From: Candidatus Altimarinota bacterium
GTDB taxonomy: Bacteria; Patescibacteriota; Gracilibacteria; BD1-5; UBA6164
Reading direction: 5' to 3'
Assembly (NCBI GenBank): GCA_027019405.1
Contig: JALUWO010000386.1
Location: 62,001 to 126,000 of the forward strand
DNA length: 64,000 nt
Shown: piece by piece, positions 3,367 to 13,290 of the stretch
Position numbering within the stretch: the stretch's first letter is position 1
Layout: each line of letters starts with the position of its first letter
Notes under the pieces: generated by a model
Told to the model about the DNA's origin: nothing
Database searches by the model: none
What the model saw: only the letters and a program-made list of their open reading frames with translations
Made by a program: the position numbers and the translations under genes

Positions 3367-4413
3367 TTAAAATTCCCAACTTCAATTCATAGCACTACTT
3401 TGTGCATAGTTTGTAACTGTAGATTCAAAGAAATTCCCTTTTTCACCATTATTATCTTGAAGTCTATCAAGATGTTTTAATGGATTTGTTGTATAACCTG
3501 GATAAATAGGATTAATTCATAACATATTCATTCTTTCATTTGCTAACCATTTTGTATAATTTTCAATATTTTCATTTCATAATCAAATTATATTTTTACC
3601 AAGAATATGTTGAGACCATTTTATCTCTTGCTCAACTGCTACTTTCATCATATCTATAATAGTTTGCTCATCATACATTTCTGGAAACTCATTTTTTATT
3701 TCCTTTAATATATTTGCAAAAATAGTTATATGAGTTAACTCATCTCTTCTTATATAATTTATCATTCTATCAGTTGCAACCATTTTTCCTTGATCAGCTA
3801 ATGTATCAAAAAAAGCAAATCAATTATAAAAATATATACTTTCAAGTAAAAAATTTCAAATTATACCTCTAAAAAAGTTTTCATCAGTAGGATTATCAAT
3901 AAAATCTTGATAAATTCCTCCTATAAATTCATTTCTTTCAAGTAAATTTTTATCAGTTCTCCAAAAATAATAAATCTCATCTCTTTGTTCTGGTTTTACA
4001 ACTGTTTCAAGAATAGTAGCATATGATTGAGAATGAATAGCTTCTTGATATGCTTGTATAGAAAGTATTAAATTCACTTCAGGAGCAGTAATATAATCAT
4101 TAAAATTTGGTAGATTTACAGTTTGAATGGAATCAAGAAAAATCAAAAAAGATAATATTCATTTATAAGCTCTTTTTTCATCTTCTGATAAAATTGTTTC
4201 AAATTGAGTTGCATCATCTCAAAGACCTGATACTTTTTCTGGTACCCAAAAATTACCAACCATTACTTGATAAAGTGATTTTGCCCAAGAATATTTTGTA
4301 GCATTCAATTGAAATAATCAAGTTGTATCTCATTTTATTATTGTTCTATGTGAAACTTCATCATCTCATTTTGGATTAAAAATAACATTTGCTTCCAATT
4401 CTTGTTTTATCAT
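3367..4413 (-). CDS. nrdB: Ribonucleotide reductase class I, beta (R2) subunit
   Basis: The 348-residue protein is a complete R2 subunit, which houses the diiron-tyrosyl radical cofactor used by NrdA to make deoxynucleotides. Visible ligands are Asp94 (FLDSIQTV), Glu124 and His127 (YQEAIHSQSY), a Glu in NFLLESIYFYN and the Glu/His pair in RRDELTHITIF. Tyr131 sits where the E. coli radical Tyr122 sits (SQSY versus SRSY), so this looks like a tyrosyl-radical enzyme. It lies downstream of the nitric oxide reductase gene on the same strand, with hairpins between them; nrdA is further upstream. The radical is a known target of NO. Confidence 0.96.
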
Positions 4414-4467
4414 AATATTTTCTTTAAAAATTAATTTTTAAATATTTTAATCAATTATACAAAAAAA

Positions 4468-4493
4468 TCACATTATTTTATAAAATAATGTGA
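4468..4493 (-). repeat. Perfect inverted repeat upstream of nrdB
   Basis: TCACATTATTTT is followed by ATAAAATAATGTGA, a 26-base inverted repeat in the nrdB leader. It could be an operator or a second terminator arm for the upstream qNor gene; the sequence does not decide. Confidence 0.5.
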
Positions 4494-4505
4494 ATTAAAT
4501 GTTAA

Positions 4506-4540
4506 AAAAATAGATTGATTAAATCAATCTATTTTTTTTA
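4506..4540 (-). terminator. Terminator of the nitric oxide reductase gene
   Basis: AAAAAATAGATTGATT and AATCAATCTATTTTTT form a near-perfect stem with a run of A on the left, giving U on the minus strand. It includes the last codon of the qNor gene. Confidence 0.75.
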
Positions 4541-6871
4541 TTTTTCTAAGTCTGGTTTTCTAGCTGCTTGTAATATTTTACAAGTTAAGTCAAAGAATAT
4601 TCAAACTCAACCAGCAATCATCATTGTATCAGGAATTATTCTAAACCACATCCAACCTATCATAGGAGTTAATATTTCATGTAATCTAGTAAAATAATAA
4701 CCATCATTAAATGCAACTGCTCATTGATGAAAACCTATTATTATAGTTGGAAGAGCAAAAAGTAATACTCAAAGAGTTAATAACCAAAATGAAGTATTTG
4801 CTAATTTTGTTTTCCATTGCATTCATTTTGAAGCAACATAAGATCTTACAAATAAATATAAGAAAGCTATAGCAATATAACCAAATGCTCAAAGTAAAGC
4901 AACATGAGCATGAGGCATAATTAAGTAAGTACCATGAGTATAATAATTCATTGTTGGAGTATTAATTACCATACCTAACCATCATGCTCAAATAAAATTT
5001 AATACAGCAGAACCACTTATCCACATAAAAACTGTTGAGAATTCAAATTCTTTTCAACCAAAAGTTTTTTCTCTATAATTATTCCATGCTTCAGCAATCA
5101 ATAATACAAGAGGAACTGGTTCCATAGCAGAAAAAATTCAACCAATAGCTATCCAATGTTTATCAAGACCTTGCCACCAATAATGGTGTCCTACTCATAA
5201 AGTTCATGATAACATTACAAGTAAAAGTTCAAATACCATCAATCTTACTGCTGATTTTTGTGAAACAAGTCAAAGAGATACAGTAAAGAAAGATATAACT
5301 CATACAGCAAATAACTCAAAAGTAAGTTCAACCCAAAGATGAATAACCCACCATCTATAAAAATCATCAGCTGTAAAGTTTGGCATTATTTTTTGAAAAG
5401 GAATCATTCAAGCAACATACAATCATGCAATAGCAAATGCTGACCATACAATAGTAGCAGCTAAAGGATTCTTAACTGAAGCTTTTTTTAATACTGAAAC
5501 AATCATAAAAAACCATAATAAAAGTCCAGCCATAACACCAAAATCCCAAAGTCTTCATAAATTTATAAGTTCTCTTCATTCATTACCTAACCAGAACCAA
5601 GTTTTTGGAAGCATACCTGTTGGTCACATATATAATCAAATAACAGAACCAACAACAACTACAACAATTGCAGCAAATAAGATATGAACTAACCAAGGAA
5701 ATTTATGATCTTTTCAAGCTACCCAAGGAACTATCATTAATCAACCAACTAACCAAGATCCAGCAATCCATAATATTGCTAATTGAGTATGAATAGATCT
5801 AATTGCATTAAATGGAAGCCAACTTTGAGGAATATTTATAATACTTTCAAGTCATGGAAATGTAAATCATTGACTTGGATCAGCATAAACATGAGCTAAA
5901 TAACCTCATAGAGTCATTTGAACAACAATTAAAAGTGCAATAATAGGAACTATCCAAATAAGATTTTTTTGAGACTTAAATAATTTTGTAATTTTTAATG
6001 GTTTTTCTAAATCTTTTCTATCTTCTGGTTTAAAGAAATAATTATAACCAAGAATAACAACTAAAATAGAAAAAGGCCATAAAATCAAAAATTCAAAAAG
6101 TGATACAACATGATTACTCCAAGATAAATCTTGATCAACTAAAGGTTCATTTGGCCAATTATTAGACCAAGTTCTATTTAATACTTTATTAGTTTTATAT
6201 TCAATTCTAGGAGAAGATATAACTAATTGTGACCAATCAACATAAGCTGCTATTTTTTCAGCTTCTTTAACTGTCATAAAATGACCTGGATAAGCTCTAG
6301 ATTTATCTCAATTTACCAATTGATCAACTAATTTTTTTACATTATCTTTATAAGCTAAAGCTGAAGCTTCACTATAAACTACTTTATCTTTTTTTAATAG
6401 AGTATTTTTAAAATCAGCTTTTACTATTTCCTTTATAGCTCATTGTTGAGCAGGATTCATTAATCAATCAGATTTTACAGGAACAACATCTCAATTTTTA
6501 TTAACTGTTTTATCAGCAAAACCTAATCAAAAATTTTGTTGCCCATAATAGTTATATAAAAATACAGCTCTATTATGGAAAAAATCAGTAGAAAAATCTG
6601 GACCAATATAAGCTCACATTCAAAGAAATGTTCACCAATCCATTAAATCAAATTCTTGAAAATATGCCTTACCTTGTGCAATATCTCCAGAATTATAAAG
6701 TACTTCACCATTTACACTTACTACTTGATCAGGAATAGGTGGAGTTTCTTTTCCTAAATTAGCAGTATAAAATATCAAAGCAGAAACCATAACAACTACA
6801 GTAGTCCAAAATCACCAAGTGATCCATTTTGTAGTCATCATTTTGTCTAACAAACTTTCTTTTTTGTCCAT
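4538..6871 (-). CDS. norB: Quinol-dependent nitric oxide reductase (qNor)
   Basis: The 777-residue integral membrane enzyme reduces two NO to N2O with electrons from quinol. An N-terminal helix and a large extracytoplasmic domain without any CxxCH haem motif mark the quinol type. A multi-helix heme-copper oxidase-like core follows. The FeB and haem ligands are present: His511 and Glu515 in HLWVE, His562-His563 in GVGHHYWW, and His654 and His656 in MPHAHVALLGAFGY. The MEPVPL glutamate motif is also there. No frameshift is seen and TGA codons are spread through it as glycine. The gene sits between nrdA and nrdB, with its own leader palindrome and terminators on both sides. Electron source unknown, since CPR bacteria usually lack quinone synthesis. 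Confidence 0.96.
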
Positions 6872-6895
6872 AAGCCAAAAATAAAATAATAAAAA

Positions 6896-6944
6896 ATTAC
6901 ATAATGTAATCATTATCAGTATATACACTAAGCAATTTAGTCAA
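6896..6944 (-). promoter_or_regulatory. qNor leader: palindrome and candidate promoter
   Basis: A perfect 15-base inverted repeat ATTACATAATGTAAT (6896-6910) lies 25 bases upstream of the qNor start. Upstream on the minus strand, TTGACT (6944-6939) and TATACT are spaced 15 bases, a weak promoter that the palindrome would flank. An operator for a nitric-oxide or redox regulator is a reasonable guess but the motif matches none I recognise. Confidence 0.45.
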
Positions 6945-7000
6945 GAATATAAAAGGACTTTTATATTGACTATAATAAAATATATTTCATTAATTAAAAA

Positions 7001-7032
7001 AGAGAATTATTCTTATTAAAAAATAATTCTCT
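7001..7032 (-). terminator. Terminator after the nrdA-zinc ribbon unit
   Basis: AGAGAATTATT (7001-7011) pairs with AATAATTCTCT (7022-7032) over 11 bases, and a run of T follows on the minus strand. It separates the nrdA unit from the qNor gene. Confidence 0.85.
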
Positions 7033-7050
7033 TTATCATATTTATAATAA

Positions 7051-7173
7051 TTATCAATGTATAACTTGAGGTAAACAAGCTACACAAACATAATCATCTT
7101 TTTGTTCCCTTTCTATTTTTACAAGTACTTTATCATTACTTGTATTTCAACACATAAAACATTTATTTTCCAT
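7051..7173 (-). CDS. Small zinc-ribbon protein (two CxxC)
   Basis: This 40-residue protein has CFMC near the N-terminus and CVAC near the C-terminus, the spacing of a treble-clef or rubredoxin-like metal knuckle. It ends HG* (TGA then TAA). It begins 28 bases after the nrdA stop and ends before a terminator, so it is probably the last gene of the nrdA transcript. A zinc-binding or redox accessory role is possible. It is not a standard glutaredoxin or NrdH. Confidence 0.72.
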
Positions 7174-7200
7174 AATTTTTTAATTAAAAATTAAAATTTA

Positions 7201-9813
7201 TTATCCACTGCAACTTTCACAACTTTTAACTTCTAAACTCATAGATCTTACATAATATACTGTTTTTATTCCTTTTTTATGAGCAGTCATATAATATTCA
7301 TATAATTGTCTTGGAGAAGTTGTTGCTGGATTTATCATCCATTCAAATGAAATTGATTGATCTATCCATTTATAAACAGTTGCTATCATATCAATTACAT
7401 CATTCATATCCATATTTACATATTCTTTATAATACCAAAAATTTTCTTGATCTAAATTTGGAGCAACATTTACACTTGGTGCAATAGCATTTGTTTCAAC
7501 AAAATATTTTTTATATATTGGTAAAATTGAAGCTGTTGTTCAAACAACAAGTGCAGTTGAAGTATTTGGAGCTGGAGCTAAATGATATGCAAATCTCATA
7601 CCATCTTTTTTTATATTTTCAATTAATTTTAACCATTTATCTGACATTTCAGAATTTTTCTTGAACCAATCAGCATCTTTACCAATTAAAATTCATTTTG
7701 ACCATTCAGATCACTCATAAACTTCATAAGTTCATCTTTCTTTTGCCAATTTATTTGATGCTTTTAATGTATTGTATGTATATTTTTCAAATAATTTATC
7801 TACAACTTCTCTTGCCTCTTTTGAATCATATGCAAGTTTATTTACTGCTAAATATTCAGCCAATCATAAAAATCAAAGTCAAACAGATCTATATTTTTTA
7901 GCAGTATTTTCTGCTTCTTTTATTGGATAAAAATTTAAATCTATAACATTATCTAAAAGCCTCATAGCAACAGGAATAACTTCTTTTATTTGTTTATCAG
8001 TATTTACTTTTGCTACATTTATAGATGCTAAATTACATACAACACTATCACCTGGCTCATATTTTATAACTATTTTACCATCTTCTATTTGTTCTTCTAC
8101 AAACTTTGAAGGACTAGTATTTTGACAAATTTCTACACAAAGTTGAGTTGAATAAACATTTCATACATGTTTATTTGGATTTAAATTATTTACAGTATCC
8201 CTAAAAAATGCATATGGCATTCAAGTTTCTACTGTAACTTTTAAATAAGTTTTGAATAAATCTTTAGCATTTACAACATCTTTTAATTCTAAGTCTGAAT
8301 TTTTTTCACATTCTATATAAAATTTTTCAAATTCATATCAAAAATGATCTTGTAACTTTTTACCTGTTTTGTCATATATTTCTTTTGGGTCAAATAATGT
8401 CCAAGATTCATTATTTGCAACTCTTTGCATAAATAAATCAGGAAAAGTAACAGCAGGAAAAACATCAAAAGATTTTGATCTAATATCTCAAGTTTCAGTT
8501 TGTAATTCTAAAAATTGATAAATATCTCTATGAAAACAATCCAAAGTTACTGAAATTGCTCAAGCTCTAGCTCATAATTGATTTACAGCTACAGCTGTAT
8601 CATTTATAACTTTTATCCATGGGTTCACTCATCAAGCTGCTCATTTTACACCTCTAATATATCAACCTTTTGATCTAATATTTCATAAATATACTCAAAT
8701 TCATCAACCAAATTTTGATACTTGAGCCATATTTTCAATAGAATGGTAAATTGCTCTTAAATCATCATCAATGTTAAATTTAAAACAACTAGATAGTTGA
8801 TGAAAGTTTGTTCTAGCATTTAATAAAGTAGGAGTTGGAAGAGATATTTTTCAAGTAGCACAATAATCATATATCTTTTTAGCAACTTCAAGTCTTACTT
8901 CTTTTGCTTCAGGAATAGCTAAAAATAAAGCAACTGACATATACATTTCTTGAGGTAATTCTTTGATTATTTTATTTGGATTTAATAAATATCTTTTTCT
9001 ATACATCATCATTGTTGTATAGTTATAATCAAAATCATATTCTTTCTTCAAGTATTTTCATGCTTCTAAAATATCCTCTTCACTATAATAATCATAAAAT
9101 TTTTTATAATAAAGTCATTTTTCTATATATTCATCAAACAATGATTTATAATGTTTTGCTTCATATATTTTTTTAATATCCATTGATCTATTATTTGAAG
9201 CCTCTTTATATAAGTCAATTAAAGCTAATCTTCATGCTATAAATTGCCATGATGTATTTTCAACTGAAATCAAATCAATAGCTGATTTTATCATCATTTT
9301 TGTTATATCAGAAGTTTTCATCCCTTCAACTATATATTTTTTTAGAGATTCTTCCAACACTTCAAACTTACATTTTCTAGCTAATTTATAACTAACTCTT
9401 TTATAAGTTTCTTTTACTTTTAAAATATCAAAATCTTGTTTTTCTCAAGAAGATTTTTTTATTTTCAATTTATTTTGTTCTAATTTTTTCTCTACTTTTT
9501 CTTTTTGTTTTTCTCTTCTTTTTATTCTTTCTGCTCTATATATTATAAAATGCTTACCAACTTCAAAATATCATTCAGACATCAAAACTTTTTCTACTTC
9601 ATCTTGAATTTCTTCAATAGTCAAAAAAGCTTGTTCTCATTTTTTTGATAAAACTTTTTTTAGATTTTGAATTATCATATCAGTAATATCTTCAACAAAA
9701 GATAAATCAATCATTCAAACTGATTCTGCTGCTTTTTCAATAACTCTTTCTATTCTTGTTCTATCAAAAGGTATTAGATCTCCCTCTCTTGTTTTTATAA
9801 CTTTTATTTCCAT
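7201..9813 (-). CDS. nrdA: Ribonucleotide reductase class I, alpha (R1) subunit
   Basis: The 870-residue catalytic subunit reduces ribonucleotides. The N-terminus is an ATP-cone (VIKTREGDLIPFDRTRIERVI), the allosteric activity switch. The barrel has the active-site strand STQLCVEICQN with the thiyl-radical cysteine and conserved E, and a GMPYAFFRDTVN segment. The C-terminus ends ESCSG with a CESC cysteine pair for re-reduction. Length is larger than E. coli NrdA (761) because of N-terminal and loop additions. It starts after a 336-base gene-free region with repeated TTGTTAAAAA motifs and is followed by a zinc-ribbon gene; nrdB is separated from it by qNor. Confidence 0.95.
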
Positions 9814-10149: not shown

Positions 10150-10383
10150 TTATTTTTCCCAACTAATTGCATCTACTGGACAAGCAGAAATAGCATTATC
10201 AACATCTTCTTTATTATAAGAATCTGCAGCAATTACTACTGATAATCCATTGTCATCTAATTCAAATACTTCTGGAGCAATTGCTACACAAGCAGAACAT
10301 CAAATACAAGTTGAATTTACATTTGGAACTTCAATTCCTGCTTCTCTAAGTTTTTTTACTTGTTCTTCTGTAATTATACTCAT
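10150..10383 (-). CDS. 4Fe-4S ferredoxin (single cluster)
   Basis: This 77-residue acidic protein has the cluster motif CIGCSACV near residue 27 and a remote cysteine in ISACPVDAI near residue 68. It binds one cubane cluster, like the Thermotoga/Desulfovibrio single-cluster ferredoxins. It carries electrons for unknown partners, and no oxidoreductase gene is adjacent. A long leader with a stable structure and an upstream terminator (10452-10488) precedes it, so expression may be controlled by attenuation. The TGA between the first two cysteines is the usual glycine of CxGC. Confidence 0.94.
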
Positions 10384-10488: not shown

Positions 10489-10710
10489 ATTTTGAACAAT
10501 AAATTAAAAGTAAAAAATCCAATTTAAGGTCAGTTTAGAGATTTTGTATCTCTTGATTTCCAAGATTTAGAAATACCTTTGATTCTTCAGAAAGAATTAA
10601 CCCTCATCTAAATCATCACAAAGTGATATAAGAGTATTTCAAGTAATATTTAACTGTAAGAGAAAAATATTCCAAAGCTTGCAGCCATTAAACTAGACTT
10701 TTAACTAGAC
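10452..10710 (-). ncRNA. Candidate structured RNA or attenuator ahead of ferredoxin
   Basis: Several short stems nest regularly. CAGTT (10531-10535) pairs with AACTG (10652-10656) and encloses GAGAT/ATCTC (10538-10552), TCTTG/CAAGA (10551-10565), a 7-base stem ATTTAGA/TCTAAAT (10565-10613) with an inner ATTCTT/AAGAAT, and ATCAC/GTGAT (10615-10627). The terminator at 10452-10488 works only on the minus strand, where an A-C mismatch becomes a G-U pair. This makes a minus-strand RNA of about 250 bases ending 70 bases before ferredoxin. It matches no RNA class I recognise (not tmRNA, RNase P or SRP RNA). Confidence 0.5.
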
Positions 10711-12431: not shown

Positions 12432-12806
12432 ATGAAAAAATACTTAAATATATATATATGATTATTTTTACTTCTATTTTCAAAAATAACATTTGCAACT
12501 AATGATGGATGAATTTTTTGAGATGATATGTGAGATAAATTAAAATGAAAAGAATATAAAGATGGAAAATGAATAACATTAAATGATATTCCTAATATGA
12601 TAAAAAATGCTATAGAATTTTTTATATGAATAGCATGAACTATTTCAATAATTTTTATAATTATTTGAGCATATCAAATCTTATTTGGTTCTCTTCAACA
12701 AGATAAAACAAAGTGAAAAAACACTATTCTTATGGCACTATGAGGTTTTGCAATATCAACTCTTGCATGGTTTATAGTTCAAATGATTTTTAATAATTTT
12801 AGCTAA
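12432..12806 (+). CDS. VirB2/TrbC-like pilin-type membrane protein
   Basis: The 124-residue protein has an N-terminal signal (MKKYLNIYIGLFLLLFSKITFA) and two hydrophobic helices separated by a short basic loop (QQDKTKGKN). That is the layout of VirB2/TrbC pilins of type IV secretion systems. The segment before the helices (ITLNDIPNMIKNAIEFFIGIAG) is typical of CPR homologues. It is in the same orientation 10 bases after the previous gene. It probably forms the extracellular filament or channel lining. Confidence 0.78.
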
Positions 12807-12828
12807 TTAATTTTTTAAAAATAATAAA

Positions 12829-13290
12829 ATGACTGAAACTCTTTATAGTTGGTCTTTTGACTGAAAAAGACAAAGATGAAATCTTTGGTATATAATAATC
12901 ATATCTATAGCTGTATGACTTATAATATGGTGATTTATAAATAAAATCTATTGATTAAGTTTTGTTATAATGATTTTGGCATGACTTATGTATTTTATTG
13001 AAAATAATTCTCCTGATAAAATAAATGTAGTTATAAATGAATTATGAATACAAGTATGAACAACTTTTTATGATTTTTGAGATATTTCATCATTTACTAT
13101 AATTTATGATAAATCAACTCCTTATATGCTTAGACTAAACCTAACAAAAAAAGGATTAAAACACTTAGATTTATATATAACTCCTGATAATGCAAGTCAA
13201 ATAAAAAATATTTTATTAAACTTTACTCAAGAAAATTGAAAACAAGACCTTAGTTTTATAGAAAAAATGACAAGATTATTAAAATTATAA
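12829..13290 (+). CDS. Conserved two-helix membrane protein of the secretion cluster
   Basis: This 153-residue protein has an N-terminal aromatic segment (ETLYSWSFDGK), two close membrane helices (about 22-60) and a cytoplasmic beta-rich domain (INVVINELGIQVG...ISSFTIIYD) ending in helices. The pattern of a membrane pair plus a bPH-like soluble domain occurs beside PrgI/VirB2 genes in CPR bacteria. No catalytic motif is seen. Function unknown; a structural role in the same apparatus is inferred from position only. Confidence 0.72.

Follow-up and report, generated by a model that had tools for sequence, protein, structure and literature searches.

A gene predicted to encode a quinol-type nitric oxide reductase (qNor) sits just after nrdA inside a wider aerobic-plus-anaerobic ribonucleotide reductase (RNR) gene cluster in three genera of one Gracilibacteria family. 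The linkage between qNor and the RNR genes is genuine and long-standing in the lineage, and it is selected or at least stable. We are moderately confident that qNor is a quinol-fed NO reductase, acquired once and lodged in the RNR locus under an nrdD-type promoter, which would use scavenged quinone to remove NO under low oxygen. This explanation draws on the intact sequence, the conserved linkage, the single origin, the common promoter element, the co-occurrence with cytochrome bd and quinone reductases, and the missing UbiA.

Genes of the locus

The window (the whole 64,000-nucleotide stretch of DNA analyzed) is part of a contig of 149,893 bases from a genome of 2.70 Mb in 504 contigs that is 93% complete (G000), a large bin. 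All genomes compared were MAGs, and ORFs were translated under genetic code 25, in which TGA encodes glycine. The two relatives that also carry qNor, G111 (public record JAQVGG010000001) and G117 (JAMOTX010000003), are separate MAGs from other genera of the same family. The order nrdA-qNor-nrdB that had been read from the window was confirmed under this code (Table 1), although the qNor frame could also open at a GTG at position 6928, a codon inside the putative promoter.

Table 1. Features of the RNR-qNor locus in window coordinates
Feature	Position	Strand	Remarks
nrdB, class I RNR radical subunit, 348 aa	3367..4413	-	Intact; Tyr131 present
Two hairpin + T-run terminators, qNor to nrdB	4461..4533	-	-9.1 and -9.9 kcal/mol
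qNor, quinol-type nitric oxide reductase, 777 aa	4538..6871	-	ATG start, intact; 34 TGA = Gly
Putative qNor -35/-10, TTGACT-N15-TATACT	6918..6944	-	Inferred by comparison with G117
Promoter element TAGTCAATATAAAA upstream of qNor	6959..6972	-	Sole exact match in window; common to relatives' nrdD promoters
Hairpin + T-run, terminator between nrdA/zinc-ribbon ORF and qNor	6996..7034	-	-14.7 kcal/mol; equivalents in G111 and G117
Zinc-ribbon-like ORF, 40 aa, CxxC...CxxC, between nrdA and qNor	7051..7173	-
nrdA, class I RNR large subunit with ATP-cone, 870 aa	7201..9813	-	Intact, code 25
Single-cluster ferredoxin (Fer4_13), 77 aa, upstream of nrdA	10150..10383	-	Present in G111 too
Conserved noncoding stretch upstream of ferredoxin-nrdA	10500..10690	-	Contains GGCTGCANGCTTTNGAATATTTTTCTCTTACA ... 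GAGATACAAAATCTCTAAACTGACC

Pfam domains of the nrdA product were the RNR barrel and the ATP-cone, and that of the nrdB product was Ribonuc_red_sm. Aligned with 7AIL, NrdB retained the di-iron ligands, E124/H127, the DELTH motif, and the radical Tyr131 noted in the sequence-only reading; the radical tyrosine and the di-metal carboxylate/histidine ligands of a class I RNR are all in place.

Several smaller features accompany these genes. A microprotein of 40 to 42 aa with the pattern CxxC...CxxCLP is encoded between nrdA and qNor both in the window and in G117 (L006:12849-12977, minus strand). This zinc-ribbon ORF was missing from every qNor-less RNR locus that was examined, and its derivation from the qNor donor was rejected, as 0 of 78 donor-type loci have one. 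An extra ORF of about 81 aa and unknown family occupies the same interval in G117 only (L006, about 12550-12830). The noncoding stretch upstream of ferredoxin-nrdA is conserved in two genera (second copy, L005:4426-4620, plus strand), matched no Rfam family at gathering score, and is possibly an unrecognized structured RNA.

Predicted properties of qNor

The qNor product contained PF00115 (COX1) and PF22085 (NorB cytochrome-c-like domain), and its closest solved structures were qNORs, matched over the full length: that of Geobacillus (3AYF; E = 1e-107), followed by those of Neisseria and Alcaligenes. As in known qNORs, for which residue roles have been described (PMC13087809, PMC10256718), an N-terminal cytochrome-c-like domain without heme c (the CxxCH motif is absent) is fused to the NorB core. 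All six histidines for heme b, heme b3, and FeB were located by alignment to 3AYF (H361, H511, H562, H563, H654, and H656), which bears out the claim, made from the window alone, of a complete set in an intact protein of 777 aa. Both catalytic glutamates (E515 and E584) and the quinol site (H327, W742, R744, and D748, equivalent to Ax His305, Trp718, Arg720, and Asp724) were likewise present. None of these key residues had been lost; all are invariant across the three family homologues. The position of Glu309/Glu332 in known qNORs is occupied by Asp331. An AlphaFold prediction on a three-row alignment gave a pLDDT of 41, too low to be informative. Judged from its residues, qNor appears to be a fully working enzyme whose quinol site is intact, and it would be expected to act as an NO reductase.

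Distribution and gene order among relatives

A PF00115 (heme-copper oxidase) profile search covering 353 genomes of the class recovered a full qNor homologue in only three, which represent three genera of one family. An even draw of 380 genomes of the phylum yielded one CPR qNor besides the window's own, in G573; the 11 kb of surrounding sequence that was read contained no RNR homologue. The two homologues in G111 and G117 are 74 to 75% identical to the window's protein. In all three genomes, qNor immediately follows nrdA. The order in both G111 and G117 is nrdA-qNor-nrdD-nrdG-nrdR-nrdB on one strand (nrdA of G117 is cut by a contig end), so the arrangement in the window is a pared-down version of a larger RNR cluster. 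Direct nrdA-qNor-nrdB adjacency, which the sequence-only reading proposed to look for in relatives, is therefore specific to G000, since G111 and G117 have the anaerobic RNR genes between qNor and nrdB; the placement of qNor after nrdA did recur, in both other genera. Adjacency of qNor and nrdB in G000 goes with the absence of nrdD-nrdG-nrdR; no nrdD was found anywhere in that genome, whereas 25 of 48 family genomes carry one. Among 20 qNor-less relatives, the locus read nrdA-nrdD-nrdG-nrdR-nrdB, nrdA-nrdB, or a variant. The premise that nrdA and nrdB are normally adjacent needs correction for this family, in which either the longer order or nrdA-nrdB is usual.

An assembly artifact or contaminant was ruled out by the two independent MAGs, by the in-frame TGA codons (32 to 38 in each of the three qNor genes), and by a TGA share of glycine codons in qNor (0.54) like that of its neighbors (0.52 and 0.69). 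A contig join, the artifact against which the observation was to be checked, is likewise at odds with the occurrence in relatives.

Origin of qNor

The three family sequences formed one clade in the qNor tree (SH-aLRT, 100), with G000 and G117 paired (97), and this clade was nested within a Bacteroidota/Ignavibacteriota/Chlorobiota clade (99). In the NrdA tree, the three qNor genomes fell within one 10-genome clade (100) and branched in the same order, (G111,(G117,G000)), with the NrdA of G117 partial; the NrdB tree gave no resolved grouping of the qNor genomes. The simplest reading of these trees is a single horizontal acquisition from the Bacteroidota/Ignavibacteriota/Chlorobiota group and later losses, in which case the three nrdA-qNor linkages are not three independent events. 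Bacteroidota-type qNor loci contained no nrd genes within reach. Cotransfer of qNor with nrdDG from the donor was rejected because of these loci and because qNor-less relatives already have the order nrdA-D-G-R-B. A viral origin was also discarded, as no relatives were found among viral contigs.

Transcription signals

All three genomes have a hairpin followed by a T-run upstream of qNor; G000 and G117 also have one downstream of it, where G111 has a long palindrome that may instead be an nrdD operator. On these signals, the genes would not form a cotranscribed nrdA-qNor-nrdB operon, in which no terminator or promoter is expected between them. Since terminators flank it, qNor is probably a separate transcription unit.

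In each of the three genomes, the sequence upstream of qNor includes GTCAATNNAAAA followed by a -35-like TTTGC/TTGAC, and the same layout precedes nrdD in relatives. This composite element occurred at 14 sites in 119.5 kb of family intergenic DNA, compared to 0.22 expected under a first-order Markov model. Three of the sites belong to qNor, eight to nrdD, one to an nrdB-nrdD cluster, and one to a pilin-like gene (G102), and one lies between convergent genes. The strict element was found in 9 of 23 nrdD upstream regions, compared to 0 of 31 for nrdB and 0 of 16 for nrdA. In G102, GTCAATNNAAAA also precedes type IV-pilin-like genes with large variable C-termini (L204:6352 and L205:5043 and 6413); the element is therefore not exclusive to nrdD. 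Palindromes are present in the qNor promoter, and their match to NrdR boxes was not convincing. By its putative promoter element, qNor is linked more closely with nrdD-type control than with that of nrdAB, and low-oxygen control of qNor would be expected. Because G000 lacks nrdD, the partner suggested by promoter type is gone from that genome.

Quinone, heme, and electron supply

The usual picture of CPR bacteria is one of fermenting cells that do not respire. The sequence-only reading had likewise assumed a cell with little or no respiration, which did not hold for G000, where cytochrome bd and a sulfide:quinone oxidoreductase (SQR) were found. The bd subunit I gene (cydA) was present in 6 of 48 family genomes, near full length in 5, and occurred in 3 of 3 qNor genomes versus 3 of 45 others (hypergeometric P = 0.0012, uncorrected for kinship). 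In G117, cydA lies at a contig end and is broken by a frameshift, and cydB was not seen. A candidate quinone reductase lies beside cydAB in every bd-complete genome: SQR in G000, G111, and G084 and, next to cydA in G117 and G090, a flavodoxin-fold NAD(P)H:quinone-reductase-like gene. No SQR was found in the bd-less genomes tested.

In G000, cydAB and SQR lie about 5 kb apart on contig C17 (L179:1618-10105), a quinol module seemingly dependent on borrowed quinone and heme. Aligned to 3H8I, this SQR has the three cysteines of the Acidianus enzyme (ysmCdd, apCegp, and vlCimg), which we take to be the redox cysteines. The G111 homologue (L180:6119-7384) scored below the cutoffs of the NCBIfam SQR models, and the gracilibacterial SQR may be a divergent subgroup. 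Cytochrome b561 was dropped as a general electron donor, being confined to G111.

The UbiA prenyltransferase, to our knowledge required for every known isoprenoid quinone, was found in 0 of 9 family genomes searched and was matched in 14 of 14 control genomes, in agreement with the initial view that the cell does not make its own quinone. Ferrochelatase was found in neither G000 nor G117. With neither UbiA nor ferrochelatase, both quinone and heme would have to come from outside; quinone would presumably be scavenged, with electrons flowing through it toward bd and qNor.

Proposed role and alternative explanations

In the explanation favored here, qNor would catalyze 2 NO + 2 e- + 2 H+ -> N2O + H2O at the expense of quinol and would be kept in the RNR locus of one Gracilibacteria sublineage as its own transcription unit behind a class III RNR (nrdD)-type promoter. 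Cytochrome bd and a quinone-reducing flavoprotein (SQR in G000) are its probable partners on a quinone pool that would be taken from the host or the surroundings. Removal of NO under low oxygen would allow the radical- and metal-dependent RNRs and the bd oxidase to keep working. Counting against this explanation are the element at the G102 pilin-like genes, the absence of nrdD from G000, the cydA frameshift and unseen cydB in G117, the missing ferrochelatase, and the reliance on MAGs, one of them a large bin. More tentatively, and with some doubt, the organism can be pictured as an ultrasmall symbiont in which sulfide or NAD(P)H would reduce scavenged quinone for bd (O2) and qNor (NO), with heme also not self-made and the NO branch wired into both the promoter program and the locus of DNA-precursor synthesis.

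Nanomolar to micromolar NO is enough to inactivate di-iron RNR (PMC3820574), which makes protection of RNR by qNor plausible; as a specific purpose of the gene, such protection is possible. The narrower proposal made originally, that qNor was placed with nrdAB as a dedicated shield because NO quenches the NrdB tyrosyl radical, can appeal to this inactivation, to the retained Tyr131, and to G000, which keeps only nrdA, qNor, and nrdB together. We nevertheless consider it rather unlikely and not the best reading: terminators lie on both sides of qNor, the promoter element is common to nrdD and not to nrdA or nrdB, and nrdD-nrdG-nrdR come after qNor in both other genomes. Furthermore, 45 of 48 family genomes, most of them with nrdB, manage without qNor, and NO diffuses so freely that gene position alone would give no local protection. 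Slightly more credible, though still unlikely, is hitchhiking, in which one chance insertion after nrdA was coinherited and its position and promoter, the latter copied from nrdD, mean nothing functionally. The single origin and the congruent qNor and NrdA trees amount to one event, as hitchhiking would have it, and the element occurs at pilin-like genes too; however, adjacency and element have outlasted divergence to about 75% protein identity, over which the downstream flanks, the spacers, and the nrdD-G-R content changed.

A role in partial denitrification for energy or redox balance, in which NO from neighbors or the host would be the acceptor of a short sulfide/NAD(P)H-quinone-NO chain and qNor would lie in the RNR locus only incidentally, would account for the co-occurrence of qNor with bd oxidase and quinone reductases, and the pairing of qNOR and quinol oxidase in UBA1550 Patescibacteria has been read so (PMC12931201). 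It leaves the conserved RNR location and the nrdD-type promoter unexplained and appears quite improbable. An NO dismutase making O2 for class I RNR would belong to a related fold family and would offer an attractive tie to an O2-dependent enzyme. Dismutases, however, carry His-to-Asn and Glu-to-Gln changes at the metal site and are missing the quinol site (PMC3413370). No such changes were found in qNor, and since all of its heme, FeB, catalytic-Glu, and quinol-site residues are present, we regard this activity as extremely improbable.

Comparison with known systems

In three genera of tiny, host-dependent bacteria, a DNA-precursor gene cluster houses a borrowed NO-destroying enzyme. These genera apparently lack quinone synthesis, yet they have a second oxidase that uses quinone and an enzyme that is likely to charge it. 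How the few CPR bacteria with quinol enzymes feed them is an open question (PMC12931201); with bd and an adjacent quinone-reductase candidate in all qNor genomes, the question of the electron donor becomes open to direct testing. One denitrifier plasmid was already known to link NO removal with deoxynucleotide synthesis; the link reappears here in a lineage unrelated to it, where expression data can put it to the test.

The known qNORs of Geobacillus (3AYF), Alcaligenes (8BGW), and Neisseria (6L3H) resemble qNor in full-length architecture, metal ligands, glutamate pair, and quinol-site His/Trp/Arg/Asp. Unlike them, the window's qNor belongs to a code 25 Gracilibacterium without UbiA and lies within an RNR cluster. 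Two Campylobacterota loci, L151 (Arcobacter) and L165, also have a qNOR with nrdD-nrdG within 8 kb, as in the family; these are only 2 of 78 non-Gracilibacteria loci, fall outside the donor clade, and had no class I RNR genes found there.

The close precedents for pairing qNor with RNR genes or a quinol oxidase are Cupriavidus necator megaplasmid pHG1 and the Patescibacteria UBA1550. UBA1550 has a qNOR and a Cyo quinol oxidase, no classical electron transport chain, and an electron source stated to be unknown (PMC12931201). Like UBA1550, the qNor genomes belong to CPR cells and combine a qNOR with a quinol oxidase; they differ in having a bd oxidase, a quinone-reductase candidate, and qNor in the RNR locus. 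On pHG1, the order is norR-ytfE-qNOR-...-nrdD-nrdG, with the qNOR (left out of the qNor tree) preceding nrdD-nrdG by about 1.2 kb on one strand, and its nrdDG is needed for denitrifying growth (PMC2864759). The pHG1 cluster differs from that of the window's family in its norR, ytfE, and nos genes and in the absence of nrdA and nrdB within it, and it is like G111 and G117 in placing a qNOR upstream of nrdD-nrdG.
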